From Terriglobales bacterium (GTDB lineage Bacteria; Acidobacteriota; Terriglobia; Terriglobales; Acidobacteriaceae), in the NCBI GenBank assembly GCA_025451215.1, contig JANWKU010000051.1, positions 1-46,880 on the forward strand: a stretch of 46,880 nt of DNA. The letters are read 5' to 3'. The notes beneath the pieces are model-generated. The model worked only from the letters and a program-made list of their open reading frames with translations, was not told the DNA's origin and did not search any database. Numbering within the stretch: position 1 is the stretch's first letter; every line of letters begins with the position of its first letter. The translations under genes and the position numbers were made by a program. Shown one piece after another: positions 25,371 through 32,061 of the stretch.

Positions 25371-26516
25371 ATGACCCTTACGAGTTTTGTGCGCAAGAAC
25401 TCTTTCCGTAATAAGCGGCGGAGCATCCTGACGGTCCTCAGCATTGGGTTTTCGCTTTTATTGCTCACGCTGATGATGACCATTTGGCGCGGCTTTTTCG
25501 TGGACAAAGGCACGGCCGATTCTGCCTTGCGGCTGGTCACGCGCCATAAGGTTTCGCTGGCTTTCACCATGCCCGGTTTTTACCGGCAAAAGATTCAAGC
25601 GATCCCTGGCGTGGTAGCGGTTGTGCCCTTGAACTGGTTTGGCGGTGTATATAAAGACGACAAATCAGGAAACTTTTTTGCGCAGTTCGGAACCGATCCC
25701 GACCAGTTTTTCGATGTTTACAAGGATTTTAAGATTGATCCCGATCAGTTAGCAGCGTGGAAACACGATCGGCAGGGCGCTGTCGTGGATGCCGAACTGG
25801 CCAAAAAGTACAACTGGAAGATTGGGCAAAAGATTGTCATTACCGGCCAAATTTTCCCGATCAATCTGGAATTGAATATTCGCGGAATCTTTACCGCGCC
25901 GCAATCCACTTCATCGTTGTACTACAACCAGAAATACGTCGAAGAAGGCGTTTCGTATTTGAAGGACCAGAGCGGCATGTACACAACATTGGCTGACAAT
26001 TCTGATGACGTAAGCCGGATTTCTTCAACGATCGACGGCATGTTCCATAACTCTCCGCAACCCACCAAAACTGAGGATGAGAAGGGATTCCAGCGCGGCT
26101 TCCTCGCCATGCTTGGAAACGTGAAGGCCTTTTTGTTGAGCATTTCGCTGGCAGTTGTATTTGCGACTTTGCTGGTTTCGGCCAATACGATGGCCATGTC
26201 AATCCGCGAACGAACGCGTGAAGTCGCAGTGCTGAAGACGCTAGGATTCACGCGCAACAGTATTTTGGGGTTGTTCATAGGGGAGGCGGTTGTCATCGCA
26301 TTGATTGGTGGAATTTTCGGTTCATTAGCGGCATTTGTGCTGGGCAATGCCGCTGCACACAATGTGGGTGGTATGGGCAATGCTCTCGCTGTAAAAGTTG
26401 GGACCATGGTGTTTGCATGCGTGGTCGCCGCATTTGTCGGCTTTCTGAGCGCAGCGGTCCCTGCTTACTACGCTTCAAAGATTGGCATTGTGGAAGGATT
26501 GCGTCACATCGGTTAG
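25371..26516 (+). CDS. ABC transporter permease, FtsX/MacB type (first of two)
   Basis: A 381-residue inner-membrane protein with the FtsX/MacB layout: one N-terminal helix (about 19-41), a large periplasmic domain of some 210 residues, and three C-terminal helices (about 249-278, 298-325 and 340-365). The cytoplasmic coupling segment SIRERTREVAVLKTLGFTRN is the classic motif of this family. It pairs with the second permease, adaptor and ATPase downstream. ATG 25371 is preceded by GGAG at 25361-25364 with good spacing. Substrates of such exporters include peptides, antibiotics and lipoproteins; none is indicated here. Confidence 0.9.
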   Translation: MTLTSFVRKNSFRNKRRSILTVLSIGFSLLLLTLMMTIWRGFFVDKGTADSALRLVTRHKVSLAFTMPGFYRQKIQAIPGVVAVVPLNWFGGVYKDDKSGNFFAQFGTDPDQFFDVYKDFKIDPDQLAAWKHDRQGAVVDAELAKKYNWKIGQKIVITGQIFPINLELNIRGIFTAPQSTSSLYYNQKYVEEGVSYLKDQSGMYTTLADNSDDVSRISSTIDGMFHNSPQPTKTEDEKGFQRGFLAMLGNVKAFLLSISLAVVFATLLVSANTMAMSIRERTREVAVLKTLGFTRNSILGLFIGEAVVIALIGGIFGSLAAFVLGNAAAHNVGGMGNALAVKVGTMVFACVVAAFVGFLSAAVPAYYASKIGIVEGLRHIG

Positions 26517-26538
26517 TCACACCGGTCAAGGGAAATTT

Positions 26539-27702
26539 ATGGCGATTCCGATCAGCTACAACGTGCGTAATTTGAAGTTGCGAAAGGGCCTCACCATCAT
26601 GACGTCGCTGGGTATTGCGCTGACGGTTACTACGGCCATTTTCGTCATGGCCTTGCTTGCCGGTTTGCAGCGTGCCTTCGTGAGCAGCGGTAGTCCGCTG
26701 AATGTGCTGGTCATGCGCAAAGGTTCGGCGTCCGAACTTACGGGGGGATTTGACGCGGCCGACCTTCCTGTTCTGAAAAATCTCCCGGGAATTGCGAAGG
26801 ACTCGCACGGCGATCCGATGGTTTCGGGAGAGTGGATGGTCGTGATTGTGCTGCCTCGCAAAGATGGCACGGGCGAAGTCAACGTCGCCGTGCGTGGCAT
26901 GATGCAAGATGGCCTCGAACTGCGAAATGGTGTAAAGCTTGTCGAAGGACGGTGGTTTACTCCGGGGCAGCGTGAGGTAGTGGTGAGCCAGAGCATCCAT
27001 AAACGTTTCGCGCATGCCAATGTCGGCGATGATTTGGAATTCGGCAAAGGGCTGTGGAAGGTTGTCGGTGTGTTCGACGCCGGAGGTTCGGCGTACGACT
27101 CTGAGATCTGGGGCGACGTAAACCAGATGGCATCAGACTTCGATCGCCAGGGAGCTTTCGGTTCGGCTTATTTACGTGCGACAGATCCGGTTTCCGCCGA
27201 CGCTTTAAAGAACCGGGTGAGCGATGATCAGCGACTAAAGCTCGATGGCATCATCGAAAAGGATTACTACGAGAAGCAGACGAACTCAGGGAACTTGATC
27301 GAGTACGTGGGATGGGTGGTAGCCATTATTATGGCGATCGGGTCGAGTTTCGCGGCCATGAATACGATGTATGCGGCCGTTGCGTATCGCTCACGGGAAA
27401 TCGCGACGCTGCGCATTATTGGATTCAGCCGTCCCAGCATTCTTACGTCGTTCGTCTTCGAATCGGTCTTGTTGTCAGTGATCGGGGCCGTTGCCGGCGT
27501 GATTCTCATGTTGCCGTTTAATGGAATGACGACGGGAACACAGAATCCTGCGACGTTCAGCGAAGCGGTGTTCAGCTTGCAGATGACGCCCCATGTTGTG
27601 ATTGTTGCCGTCATTTTTGCGATGACGATGGGACTTTTGGGTGGCATTGCGCCTGCATGGCATGCTGCCCGTCAGAATATTTTGACCGCTTTACGCGGTT
27701 AG
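26539..27702 (+). CDS. ABC transporter permease, FtsX/MacB type (second of two)
   Basis: A 387-residue permease with the same topology as its upstream neighbour: N-terminal helix (about 21-42), periplasmic domain, then three helices near 252-278, 302-330 and 350-375. The family motif appears as AYRSREIATLRIIGFSRPS. Its periplasmic domain differs clearly from that of the first permease, so the transmembrane unit is probably a heterodimer. I chose ATG 26539 with AAGGGA just upstream; an in-frame start at 26482 would overlap the preceding gene by 35 bases. Twenty-two bases separate the two permease genes. Confidence 0.9.
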   Translation: MAIPISYNVRNLKLRKGLTIMTSLGIALTVTTAIFVMALLAGLQRAFVSSGSPLNVLVMRKGSASELTGGFDAADLPVLKNLPGIAKDSHGDPMVSGEWMVVIVLPRKDGTGEVNVAVRGMMQDGLELRNGVKLVEGRWFTPGQREVVVSQSIHKRFAHANVGDDLEFGKGLWKVVGVFDAGGSAYDSEIWGDVNQMASDFDRQGAFGSAYLRATDPVSADALKNRVSDDQRLKLDGIIEKDYYEKQTNSGNLIEYVGWVVAIIMAIGSSFAAMNTMYAAVAYRSREIATLRIIGFSRPSILTSFVFESVLLSVIGAVAGVILMLPFNGMTTGTQNPATFSEAVFSLQMTPHVVIVAVIFAMTMGLLGGIAPAWHAARQNILTALRG

Positions 27703-27720: not shown

Positions 27721-29094
27721 ATGGCGCTCGACACAAAACACGAAGATCTACAGAGCCTGCGAATTGATCGCTCGGCTTATCACGATCCGCAAAGTGGGCC
27801 GACCTGGGCGCGCCGTTACATTTTCATTGGCATTGCCATTGTTGTGCTGTTAGGGCTGTTCGCGCTTGCCTATCGCTTGCTTTCTACTGATCCGATTGAA
27901 GTCGAAGTCTCTCGCGCGACGACGGAAAGTTCGGGCTCCGATGTTGGTGGCGTTGTTCTTTCCGCGACGGGATACATTGTGCCTCATCACAAGATCAACG
28001 TGAACTCGAAGGTCACCGGACTTGTGAAGTGGATCGGCGTGGAGAAGGGTGACAAGGTAAAAGAAGGCCAGGTGCTGGTACGTCTGGAAGACAACGAATT
28101 TCGCGCGCAATACGAACAGCAACTCGGCGCAGCGGAAAATGCGAAGGCCTATTTGCAAGAATTGCAGAATGGATCTCGTCCCGAAGAAATTGCCCAGGCC
28201 CAGCATAACTTTGACGAAGCGGTGGCCACAGCCGGCGATGACAAGTTGACACTGGATCGCACGAAGCAGCTTTTTGCTCAGGGCGTCGTTTCGCGGCAGG
28301 CGTTAGATGATGCAACTGCCCGGTATAACGCGGACCAGGCGCGTGCGAACTCGCTTGAGAGGAGCTTGCAGTTGGCGAAATTAGGGCCGCGCGCGGAAGA
28401 GATTGCTCGGGCAAAGGGTCAAGTCATGCAGGCAGAAGGCGCTGCAGCCTATGCCAAAACGCTCCTCGATGCAACTGTAATTCGCGCGCCCGTAGATGGA
28501 ACGATCCTCGAACGGACGGCGGAAAAAGGTGAACTCATTACTGCGCAGTTCGCCAGCTCGGCTGAGGGCGGCCCGCAAGGATCCATTGCGACATTGGCGG
28601 ATTTGAACGATATTCAGGCAGACCTTGATATCGCTCAAGATGACTTTGCGAAGTTGTCCCCGCATCAAAAAGCGATTGTCACTGTCGATGCTTTTCCGGA
28701 CTTGAAGTATGACGGCGTGATCGCGGAAATTTCTCCGGAGGCGAACCGGCAAAAGGCCACGGTAGAAGTGAAAGTGCAGATTAAAAATCCTGATTCACAT
28801 CTTCGCCCGGAAATGAATACCACAGTGAAATTTTTGGCAGATGAACCCGCTCAGGGCGCGGCGCAGGAATCAACGGGGGTCTTTGTTCCCGCGAACGCGG
28901 TGCGTGATCGTGGTGGAAAAAAGATTGTTTTAATCGCATTCAACGACAAAGCTGTTGCGCGTGAAGTGCAGATCGTCTCGACGCGCAGCAACGGAGTGAT
29001 GGTGCAAGGTTTGGTTGGCGGTGAAAACGTTATTACGTCCGGCCCGGCAACTTTGAAAGACGGAGACAAAATCAAGATTAAGGGGCAGTCATGA
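27721..29094 (+). CDS. Periplasmic adaptor (membrane fusion protein), HlyD/MacA type
   Basis: A 457-residue adaptor with one membrane helix (about 32-53), placing the rest in the periplasm. The split biotinyl-lipoyl domain is visible as [20 protein letters not shown] (about 98-117) and [20 protein letters not shown] (about 256-275). Between them lies a long coiled-coil hairpin (about 130-245) with paired PEEIAQAQ and AEEIARAK segments. Beta-barrel and membrane-proximal domains follow. It links the inner-membrane permeases to an outer-membrane channel; no TolC homologue is encoded here. It begins 18 bases after the second permease and overlaps the ATPase gene by four bases. Confidence 0.92.
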
Positions 29095-29804
29095 GCACAG
29101 CTACGATGCCGAATACCGCTACGCAAACTGAAGTCGTCCGCGTTCGCAATGTGAGCAAAGTATTCAAACGCGACGCATTCGAAGTGAAGGCCCTCGATGA
29201 TGTTTCCATTGACATCGCCACCGGAGAATTCATGGCGCTGATGGGACCTTCGGGCTCCGGAAAGACAACCTTGCTGAACATGATCGCGGCCATTGATCGT
29301 CCAACCGCGGGCGAGTTGCTGGTGCTGGGACAGAATATTTTCAGCTTCAACGATGGACAGGCGGCGAAATGGCGGAACCAGCACATCGGTTACATTTTTC
29401 AGACCTTCAATCTGATTCCCGTCCTCACGGCGTTTGAGAATGTTGAGTTGCCGCTGCTGCTGACGAAGCTCACGACGCAGCAACGGCGCGATCACGTGAT
29501 GACTGCATTGAAATTAGTGGGACTTGAAGAGCGCGTACACCACTTGCCGAAGCAACTCTCCGGTGGACAGGAACAGCGCGTCGCAATTGCGCGTGCCATC
29601 GCCAGCGACCCGACTTTGTTGCTCGCCGACGAGCCGACGGGAGATCTGGACAGTCACTCCGCGACGGAAATTCTCGAGATTCTGAAGCGGCTGAATGAGG
29701 ACTTTCACAAAACCGTGATCATGGTGACGCACGATCCGCACGCGGCGTCTTATGCCCGGGTCACGCGACATCTGGAAAAGGGTATGCTCCTGCCGCCCGT
29801 GTAA
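29091..29804 (+). CDS. ABC transporter ATP-binding protein, MacB/LolD type
   Basis: A 237-residue ATPase that powers the exporter. Walker A is GPSGSGKTT (about 53-61), the Q-loop lies in [14 protein letters not shown], the signature is [14 protein letters not shown], and Walker B is [12 protein letters not shown], followed by the H-loop in VTHDP. The short DEPTGDLDS form and the N-terminal [11 protein letters not shown] are typical of the LolD/MacB/FtsE branch. One unusual detail is Glu in place of the common Gln in LSGGQxQR. The gene shares ATGA with the end of the adaptor gene, which indicates translational coupling. Confidence 0.95.
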
Positions 29805-29897
29805 TTTCTGCAGACCTTCTTCTGTGGACTCGATAAACGGGTCCCTTTTATTTTTGGCCGTAAGAACATCCTTCCCAAAATATCCCAGCTTAAAACG

Positions 29898-30154: not shown

Positions 30155-30619
30155 ATGAAAGGCATTCCCGTGGTATTTGTGGCAGTGGTGGCTATGATGA
30201 TGTGGGCATCTCCTTCTTTTGCCTGCCCATCTACGTCAAAATCCGCGAATGGTCCCAGCCTCGTGCTGGCGCCAACAACCCTACAAGCAGACGGCGCTGG
30301 CCGCGTTCCATGGCCGGTCACTCTGCAGGCAGATGGCGCTGGTCGTGTTCCATGGCCGGTTACTCTGCAGGCAGACGGCGCTGGTCGTGTTCCATGGCCG
30401 GTTACTCTGCAGGCAGACGGCGCTGGTCGTGTTCCATGGCCGGTCACTCTGCAAGCAGACGGCGCTGGTCGTGTTCCATGGCCGGTTACTCTGCAAGCAG
30501 ATGGCGCTGGTCGTGTTCCATGGCCGGTTACTCTGCAGGCAGACGGTGCTGGCCGCGTTCCATGGCCAGTTACGTTGCAGGCAGACGGCGCTGGTCGCGT
30601 TCCATGGCCAGTCGCTTAA
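30155..30619 (+). CDS. Secreted protein of eight identical 14-residue repeats
   Basis: A 154-residue product. Residues 1-23 form a signal peptide (MKGIPVVFVAVVAMMMWASP then SFA) with a Cys at the probable first mature position. A short linker (24-41) is followed by eight perfect copies of TLQADGAGRVPWPV (42-153) and a final Ala. At the DNA level the copies differ, but every difference is synonymous. An AGGAG site lies about ten bases before ATG 30155. Each unit holds one Asp, one Arg, a turn-forming DGAG and a Pro-Trp-Pro, so an extended or beta-type repeat structure is possible. I do not recognise a characterised family. Candidate roles are a surface or matrix protein, or a multi-unit peptide precursor. 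Confidence 0.82.
   Translation: MKGIPVVFVAVVAMMMWASPSFACPSTSKSANGPSLVLAPTTLQADGAGRVPWPVTLQADGAGRVPWPVTLQADGAGRVPWPVTLQADGAGRVPWPVTLQADGAGRVPWPVTLQADGAGRVPWPVTLQADGAGRVPWPVTLQADGAGRVPWPVA
30278..30613 (+). repeat. Eight tandem 42-bp coding repeats
   Basis: Eight head-to-tail units of 42 bases encode the 14-residue repeats. Nine of the 14 codon positions vary among copies, always silently, for example ACC/ACT/ACG, CTA/CTG/TTG, GAC/GAT, CGC/CGT and CCG/CCA. Because 42 is a multiple of three and the unit lacks stops in several frames, long spurious frames appear on both strands here. Units 1, 7 and 8 are the most divergent, as expected if the middle units spread by recent duplication or conversion. 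Confidence 0.95.
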
Positions 30620-30727
30620 TCTGATTGCCTGAAACTTTGGTAATCAAATTTGGGTTACCTTTTTCCGATTGGTGACCCAAAGATATCTTTCAACCTGAGG
30701 GCAGCAGTAGTATTCTGCCCTCAGTTT

Positions 30728-31477
30728 ATGGGTCTGCTGATCAACATCTTTTGGTGGGCAACAATACCGATGCAGGCGGTATTGTTGTATTTGCTGGTGC
30801 GAAACACCTCCATCAAAAGTTATCCCTTCTTCTTTGCATACACCGGATTCTCGATCTTTACGGGGATAGGCCGCTTCGCTCTTCGAAACACCAGTCATCC
30901 ATATTTGTATTTTTACTGGGCCACCGACGCTGTGTTGGTGTTGCTCGCGATCGCGATTCTGCACGAAGTGTTCAAAACGGTTTTTGGCAACCTGCGGCAT
31001 AAATTCTGGTTCCGCATGATATTTCCTATCGTGGTGACCGGCACCCTGGCGCTCACCATTGTTCACGCGGAAAGCCTATTTACTGGAAAGCTCTCGCTGT
31101 TTGCTGTCATTCTGGCCAGCGAACTGGCGATGAGGTTCTTGCAGGTGGCACTGTTCGTTTTGCTGATATCTTTGGTCGCCTTGTTTGGATTACGGTGGCG
31201 GCAACAGGCTTTCGGTATTTCCGCCGGGTTTGGCATTCATGCGAGCGTTTGCCTGCTGGCGTCTACCAAGCTTTATGAAGTTGGGGCCAATTTCGAGGGA
31301 TGGTGGGGCGTGGCCACGCTGGCGGCGTATACGGTCGCAGTGGTCATTTGGCTCTGCTACTTCACTGGCGCTCCTGAACCGGTGAAATTACGTTCCGAGC
31401 TGCCTCCCTTGTCGATTGGCGATCTTGCTGTGTACCGAGATGCAATGCAGAAAGTTCAGAAGGTGCGGCACATATGA
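30728..31477 (+). CDS. Polytopic (about seven-helix) membrane protein, unknown function
   Basis: A 249-residue protein from ATG 30728; an in-frame TTG at 30650 would add 26 residues that break the membrane pattern. Around seven hydrophobic helices are visible, starting LLINIFWWATIPMQAVLLYL. The motif SYPFFFAYTGF and the aromatic-rich first loops are recurrent in a family I associate with Acidobacteria, but I know no function. The C terminus is a cytoplasmic tail of about 35 residues (ELPPLSIGDLAVYRDAMQKV). It overlaps the next gene by four bases (ATGA), so both are expressed together. It starts 108 bases after the repeat-protein gene. Confidence 0.75.
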   Translation: MGLLINIFWWATIPMQAVLLYLLVRNTSIKSYPFFFAYTGFSIFTGIGRFALRNTSHPYLYFYWATDAVLVLLAIAILHEVFKTVFGNLRHKFWFRMIFPIVVTGTLALTIVHAESLFTGKLSLFAVILASELAMRFLQVALFVLLISLVALFGLRWRQQAFGISAGFGIHASVCLLASTKLYEVGANFEGWWGVATLAAYTVAVVIWLCYFTGAPEPVKLRSELPPLSIGDLAVYRDAMQKVQKVRHI

Positions 31478-32061
31478 TGACTTACATATTGTGGTATTTC
31501 ATGATCACCGCTGGTTTTGTTGGCTGCGCTGTCGTGGCGGCCTGGACGTGGTTCCGTTTCCCGGAGCGCACCGCGCAGGACGTGGTTGACTTCCTGTTGC
31601 CGGTGGACATGGAAAAAGTGGAGGCGCTGCTTGATCCGGTCGCCGAAGGCACGTTGAGGCGCCAGCTGGACCGAGAAGAGTTCCGTCAATTACAGCGCAA
31701 GCGCATCCATTTGTACCTGTCATTCGTAAAGAGAATGGCACACAACGCTTCCGTGCTCATTGATTGGGCGAACCGTGAGGCGGAAGGCAATGACGAAAAG
31801 ATGATCCAGCTGGCCCAGGAACTGCAACAGGGCGCGGTGGAAGTACGCCTGTATTCCTTGTTGACGCTGTTGAAGCTGCGTTTCTGGCTGTTGCTCCGGG
31901 TAGATTCGTGGAAAGTTCTGCCGATCCCGAGCCTTTATGATGTCCGCGAGTTGGGCGGCATTCAAGGCGCAAAAAGCTATGATCGTTTGAAGACCACGGC
32001 TGGCTTTCTGTTTCTTGAGATGCAGCAGCCGAACTTCGAACAGCTGTTTCAGAATTTGTAA
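31474..32061 (+). CDS. Membrane-anchored helical protein, partner of upstream gene
   Basis: A 195-residue product with one N-terminal membrane helix (about 5-27), followed by a mainly helical cytoplasmic part. Charged segments such as LRRQLDREEFRQLQRKRIHLYL suggest helix bundles, and a hydrophobic stretch (YSLLTLLKLRFWLLLRV, about 127-143) could contact the membrane. I recognise no named domain. The ATG overlaps the stop of the polytopic membrane gene in the sequence ATGATG, indicating coupled translation. A terminator follows 29 bases after the stop, closing the unit. Confidence 0.72.
   Translation: MMTYILWYFMITAGFVGCAVVAAWTWFRFPERTAQDVVDFLLPVDMEKVEALLDPVAEGTLRRQLDREEFRQLQRKRIHLYLSFVKRMAHNASVLIDWANREAEGNDEKMIQLAQELQQGAVEVRLYSLLTLLKLRFWLLLRVDSWKVLPIPSLYDVRELGGIQGAKSYDRLKTTAGFLFLEMQQPNFEQLFQNL

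Follow-up and report, generated by a model that had tools for sequence, protein, structure and literature searches.

Precursors that carry several copies of a peptide for a seven-transmembrane (7TM) receptor are well known in fungal mating and among animal neuropeptides; in yeast, the α-factor has a multi-copy precursor and the peptide acts on the 7TM protein Ste2. In the Agr system, the peptide AgrD is processed by a dedicated membrane protease (AgrB), which both modifies and cuts it, and a histidine kinase (AgrC) acts as the sensor. The fungal KEPs are repeat proteins processed by Kex2 (PMC7329392). Bacterial multi-copy pheromone precursors have been described in Bacillota, where the receptors are cytoplasmic (PMC9765709). 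In these RRNPPA systems (Rap–Phr, NprR, PlcR and AimR), a propeptide exported through Sec and signal peptidase I is encoded beside the receptor gene; propeptides hold up to six identical copies each, duplicated propeptide genes occur and the maturation of multi-copy forms is unexplained (PMC9765709).

We analysed a window of 46,880 nucleotides from a Terriglobales bacterium (Acidobacteriota) in which a gene for a secreted precursor of eight identical units stands directly before a gene for a 7TM protein. The arrangement resembles RRNPPA in its small Sec-type propeptide next to a putative receptor gene, its repeated mature peptide and, at related loci, its duplicated propeptide genes. It differs in that the RRNPPA receptor is a cytoplasmic TPR protein binding re-imported peptide, whereas the linked protein here is a 7TM membrane protein; the host is an acidobacterium, the peptides are rich in Pro, Gly and Cys and the arrays reach eight units. 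We found no TPR family match among the neighbours of the precursor. With α-factor and the KEPs the locus shares a signal peptide followed by tandem near-identical copies, and the structural matches to the 7TM model include Ste2. Those precursors belong to the eukaryotic ER and Golgi, however, where Kex2 cuts at dibasic sites, whereas the unit here, TLQADGAGRVPWPV, has one Arg and no Lys and therefore lacks a dibasic pair; there is no sequence relation and, here, the peptide and 7TM genes are adjacent. The likeness to Agr lies in a peptide gene linked to a membrane (candidate) receptor gene with many divergent specificities, but neither a dedicated membrane protease nor a histidine kinase was found beside the pair. 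A literature search, mainly of open-access papers, returned no account of such a peptide–7TM module.

The precursor, the 7TM protein and its partner

The precursor is encoded on the forward strand at 30155–30619 (154 residues; ATG at 30155, TAA at 30617–30619). Residues 1–23 form a signal peptide (30155–30223, assigned by eye), followed by an 18-residue pro-region (30224–30277), eight 42-nt units in tandem without spacers (30278–30613), each encoding TLQADGAGRVPWPV, and a single Ala after the eighth unit. The leader is typical by inspection and a hydropathy rule, with MKG, a hydrophobic core and the junction SFA↓C (the arrow marks the likely cleavage site). Tandem Repeats Finder placed the array at the identical position, with a period of 42, a score of 541 and no indels. 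Together with the reading of the ORF, this confirmed the coordinates, the signal peptide and the eight exact 14-residue copies given in a preliminary description of the ORF, and a codon comparison of the copies bore out its statement that nine of the 14 codons vary, all synonymously. Those variants occupy ten nucleotide sites and correspond to a minimum of 11 synonymous and 0 non-synonymous changes, where 31% would be expected to be synonymous (P = 2.4 × 10−6); read in either other frame, the differences are all non-synonymous. From this codon pattern we infer that translation of the array is very probable and that its peptide sequence has been kept constant. Divergence between copies is highest for copies 1, 7 and 8 (4–7 nt) and is 1–3 nt for the middle five, which look like recent duplicates.

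Searches of GTDB genomes, viral contigs and the PDB turned up no protein related to the repeat, and nothing in Pfam or NCBIfam exceeded the cut-off; the preliminary description had recognised no characterised family. Two sub-threshold Pfam matches on the repeat were judged to be chance, and tblastn matches on plasmids (Klebsiella, Salmonella and E. coli hypothetical or haemagglutinin-like proteins) were weak, with less than 50% identity among the matches listed. When genomes across the family were queried with the repeat protein, the only matches were scattered and weak, for example TonB-receptor loops bearing NPDGSGRTPFP, and matches elsewhere to the DNA pattern ADG-x4-PWP in 300 family genomes fell in unrelated frames. 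The precursor is thus an orphan by sequence and was identified through synteny. A structure prediction for the array, proposed in the preliminary description as a check, returned a single-sequence AF2 model of low confidence, a β-repeat with one strand per unit (overall pLDDT 60, array about 65–72); AF2 is known to predict unrealistic solenoids for perfect repeats (PMC11795689).

The next gene (30728–31477, forward strand) encodes a 249-residue 7TM protein, a candidate peptide receptor. It has no match above cut-off in Pfam, NCBIfam or PDB sequences, including in a profile search of the latter. An AF2 model built from 13 sequences (pLDDT 82, pTM 0.73) contains seven membrane-spanning helices and a C-terminal helix, with TM6 and TM7 continuous in the DSSP string. 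Lys and Arg are many in loops 1–2, 3–4 and 5–6 and in the tail, and few in the N-terminus and loops 2–3, 4–5 and 6–7, so that, by the positive-inside rule, the protein is predicted to be N-out, C-in, with the model as a further ground for this topology. Its outer half is less conserved than its inner half (1.08 versus 1.47 bits, p = 1.4 × 10−5). Foldseek found no match to the model at E ≤ 0.001 (best 0.18), its highest-ranked rows consisting largely of rhodopsins and GPCRs. With VIA-align, all 50 of the 50 matches listed had the GPCR fold (Z 11.7–12.7), one of them a designed GPCR-like protein and the rest natural GPCRs. Ste2 was among them, with Z 11.9 across 198 residues, and all these values lie below the confidence line used for helical bundles. 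Because Z values under about 13 for helical bundles can arise from common arrangement alone, and because GPCRs are abundant in the PDB, we claim for the modelled protein a GPCR-like layout and not kinship.

The 7TM stop codon overlaps by 4 nt (ATGA) the start of a partner gene (31474–32061, forward strand), whose 195-residue product has an N-terminal hydrophobic segment and then a soluble part. Upstream of the precursor lie genes for a permease-like protein (26482–27702), a membrane fusion protein (27721–29094) and an ABC transporter ATPase (29091–29804, forward strand). We considered this ABC exporter as part of the module, but it is shared with the nearest locus (L094/L035), is missing from most others and did not recur in a neighbourhood census; these genes are probably neighbours and not components. 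A terminator-like hairpin with a T-rich tail just after the ATPase gene (29826–29844) may set the peptide, 7TM and partner genes apart as their own transcription unit, such sites being about as frequent in shuffled sequence.

A secreted peptide gene recurs before the 7TM gene

Of 300 genomes in the window's GTDB family, 140 encode homologues of the 7TM protein at E ≤ 10−8. In a phylum-wide scan, 48 of the 396 genomes carried members of the 7TM family, and 43 of these belong to that same GTDB family; a profile scan of GTDB with a narrower alignment gave 12 named 7TM loci. The named relatives come from metagenome-assembled genomes assigned to Acidobacteriaceae, Candidatus Sulfotelmatobacter, Candidatus Angelobacter and other Terriglobia. 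The only further genome of the window's genus that we examined had no match to this 7TM protein at E ≤ 10−8. The genome of the window itself carries at least five 7TM paralogues, counting the window copy. One (L197, contig C107) lies downstream of a further eightfold array, in which DGNPSSKYPV is prefixed alternately by AF and TA (two unit types), and another (L198, contig C175) behind a single-copy two-Cys peptide; a third (L196, contig C224) has no recognisable peptide gene upstream, and a fourth (contig C29) is cut by the contig end.

We examined 99 loci picked by 7TM homology, several per genus and hence not independent, with 196 other genes within the same loci as controls. A strict test called for an ATG or GTG start, a purine-rich motif before it, a hydrophobic core and a stop 30–150 nt before the 7TM start. 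By this test, a small Sec-secreted Pro/Gly-rich peptide ORF precedes the 7TM gene at 77 of 99 loci and only 6 of 196 control genes (Fisher p = 6 × 10−43); a loose version gave 87/99 versus 31/196. At the closest relative, L094 (7TM protein 46–47% identical, partner 69% identical, similar ABC ATPase upstream), the upstream ORF with signal peptide reads MKRTIQSF...ALGEGPGPPPEGPGPPPV..., and those at L098 and L118 contain ...FADGPGLPPVKSTTSAALTDGPGLPPIKSTTSAA... and ...STASLADGGAPMPTCVPPNCSS..., respectively. A partner of one family follows the 7TM gene at 54 of the 99 loci; it is mostly about 170–200 residues long with an N-terminal hydrophobic segment, and usually shows the 4-nt stop overlap. 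Seven further loci (L205, L207, L209–L212 and L216) have a second partner type in the equivalent place, which BLAST did not join to the first (about 174–189 residues; the L207 version is without a Pfam match). We conclude that the module is very likely to be a secreted peptide gene functionally linked to a 7TM gene, and that the secreted-peptide family is apparently large and undescribed.

Many mature peptides begin at the likely signal-peptidase site with DG followed by x-x-P-x-P, and the core of the window unit, DG-x-G-x-x-P-x-P, is similar to DG...P.P, the core of many single-copy peptides encoded at the equivalent position elsewhere. With mature parts cut by a crude rule, 64 of 91 peptides have at least two Cys and Pro makes up 19% of residues. 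Internal tandem copies occur in 18 of 91 precursors, 17 through exact repeats of at least five residues, to which L228 adds inexact copies. The arrays include seven LAMSPASPHPVPPPA-type units at L212, six SPSAPQPIPPAGDS units at L216, three AAGPWPFPDDSAGGNI units at L226, which belongs to another taxonomic family, and three FAGGGPMPGCDPGHC-type units at L150. On a quick 7TM tree the array trait is clustered and needs 11 state changes (gains or losses), at least seven of them on well-supported branches, and peptide repetition probably arose more than once. L200, L201, L206 and L211 have two near-identical single-copy peptide genes in tandem before the 7TM gene, a duplication instead of an internal repeat.

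Selection on the peptides extends beyond the window. Pooling 13 arrays at syntenic loci gave 90 synonymous versus 15 non-synonymous minimal changes, with 18/0 at L216 and 9/0 at L226 beside the 11/0 of the window; L209 and L210 add nothing to this tally owing to the unit-matching procedure, and a separate count for L210 gave 6 synonymous codon differences and 0 others. In close pairs of peptide genes dN was below dS wherever both were computable, and these ORFs therefore behave like real genes. The amino-acid constraint put forward in the preliminary description is thus supported by the arrays, both that of the window and several unrelated ones that occupy the syntenic position. Peptide divergence correlated with that of the 7TM outer half more than with that of the inner half (partial Mantel 0.25 versus 0.08), but the contrast was gone when only close pairs were used (0.19 versus 0.24).

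HAMP–SpoIIE phosphatase, HTH_3 regulator or response-regulator HD protein genes lie one or a few genes past the 7TM gene in single lineages only (L103:1787–3763; L123:3931–4701; L118:209–1009, reverse strand; L132:1–549, reverse strand). As possible outputs they are suggestive only, and no output gene was conserved over all examined loci.

RNA hairpins before the 7TM start codon

The gap between the precursor and the 7TM gene (30622–30724) is filled by three predicted RNA hairpins on the forward strand, with a folding z of −6.2 (−8.2 with fewer shuffles). In the minimum free energy (MFE) structure the first (30622–30646) begins just past the precursor stop; the second (30649–30681) has an 11-bp stem, and the third (30695–30724; CTGAGGGCAG...CTGCCCTCAG) ends 3 nt before the 7TM ATG. 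Among related loci, 55 of 91 peptide–7TM gaps had z below −2, whereas only 7 of 90 random stretches did. Over the 48 nt leading to the 7TM start codon, the median MFE was −19.5 kcal/mol, compared with −9.1 kcal/mol at control starts (p = 6 × 10−21); we used MFE as the measure because requiring only a hairpin of at least 9 bp discriminated too little, with 115 of 205 control starts qualifying. At many related loci, too, a hairpin of differing sequence abuts the 7TM start codon, its stem adjoining that codon or taking in part of it, and in one group of 13 gaps two-sided changes occur at 5 of 12 base pairs. A scan of the gap against Rfam gave nothing at the gathering threshold, and a sigma-70 consensus scan found none. 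The hairpin could block initiation at the 7TM gene and would thereby limit its output.

Competing explanations and a proposed mechanism

We consider the best explanation to be that the precursor is cut into its units and that these act on the linked 7TM protein, with a probability of roughly 0.55. Of the roles offered in the preliminary description, we favour a precursor of repeated peptides, since most relatives at the equivalent position are single secreted peptides of about 15–40 residues; a surface fibre or a matrix protein is less favoured, explaining neither these short single-copy relatives nor the 7TM protein. That description was confined to the ORF and so did not take in the 7TM gene with its partner and hairpin, nor the paralogues and wider family. 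An uncut chain, that is, a secreted Pro-rich repeat protein (fibre, matrix or periplasmic) that would bind the 7TM protein or assemble with it, would accord with the perfect tandem units and the one-strand-per-unit model. We regard it as unlikely, since most relatives are far below fibre size, a solenoid would not require all surface residues to be identical and the model is of the kind that AF2 draws unrealistically for perfect repeats. The presence of several paralogous pairs in a genome, the fast divergence of the peptides and their small, Pro-rich or two-Cys form would also fit a bacteriocin-like secreted peptide for which the 7TM protein provides self-immunity. Yet no dedicated exporter or modification gene recurred beside the gene pair in the neighbourhood census, no known bacteriocin or immunity model matched above cut-off, and a seven-helix protein with an overlapping partner would be elaborate for immunity, which makes this improbable.

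The strong hairpin abutting the 7TM start codon raises the alternative of a regulatory leader, in which translation of the ORF controls the hairpin and hence the 7TM gene, the product being incidental. The retention of signal peptides, purifying selection on mature residues and array copies that keep their residues while codons change make such a leader highly improbable. That the middle copies are nearly identical, as after a recent expansion, would agree with a functionless tandem array, but the synonymous excess already contradicts this: all changes are synonymous, unrelated arrays in the syntenic position share the bias and the genome holds the paralogous array L197, leaving the idea scarcely credible. 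The peptide, the N-out/C-in 7TM protein, the partner with its soluble part, several divergent pairs per genome and the identical copies together form the set expected of ligand–receptor pairs, and it is as pheromone sources that multi-copy precursors are best known.

For the cleaved precursor we infer the following course from the sequences. The precursor would be exported by Sec and its leader removed by signal peptidase, and the eight-unit chain would be split into identical peptides, with cleavage perhaps falling ahead of every Asp-Gly (LQA↓DGAGRVPWPVT). We propose this site because related precursors repeat their signal-peptidase junction residues at the starts of copies, as at L226 (VAA↓GPW and IAA↓GPW), L150 (FA↓GGGP) and L095 (LA↓DGSG); junction types recurring in this way include xLA↓DG, FA↓GGGP and ALA↓MSP. 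The parallel is weaker in the window because its leader ends in SFA↓C, a junction that, unlike in several relatives, is absent from the units; the counterpart would be LQA↓DGAG. A freed peptide may then act on the 7TM protein of the next gene, which with its overlapping partner would relay the signal inward, and the hairpin before the 7TM start may keep receptor output low relative to peptide.

More tentatively, many parallel peptide channels may operate in one GTDB family of Acidobacteriota, each with a Sec-exported peptide, often in tandem copies, a GPCR-shaped receptor and a membrane-anchored partner, all from families without known relatives. If true, this would give a peptide language to the Acidobacteriota, an abundant and little-understood soil phylum, and several candidate ligand–receptor pairs per genome whose ligands are readily synthesised. 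It would also provide a role for many small unannotated ORFs, a bacterial 7TM family to set beside the GPCRs and a bacterial counterpart of pheromone/7TM signalling.
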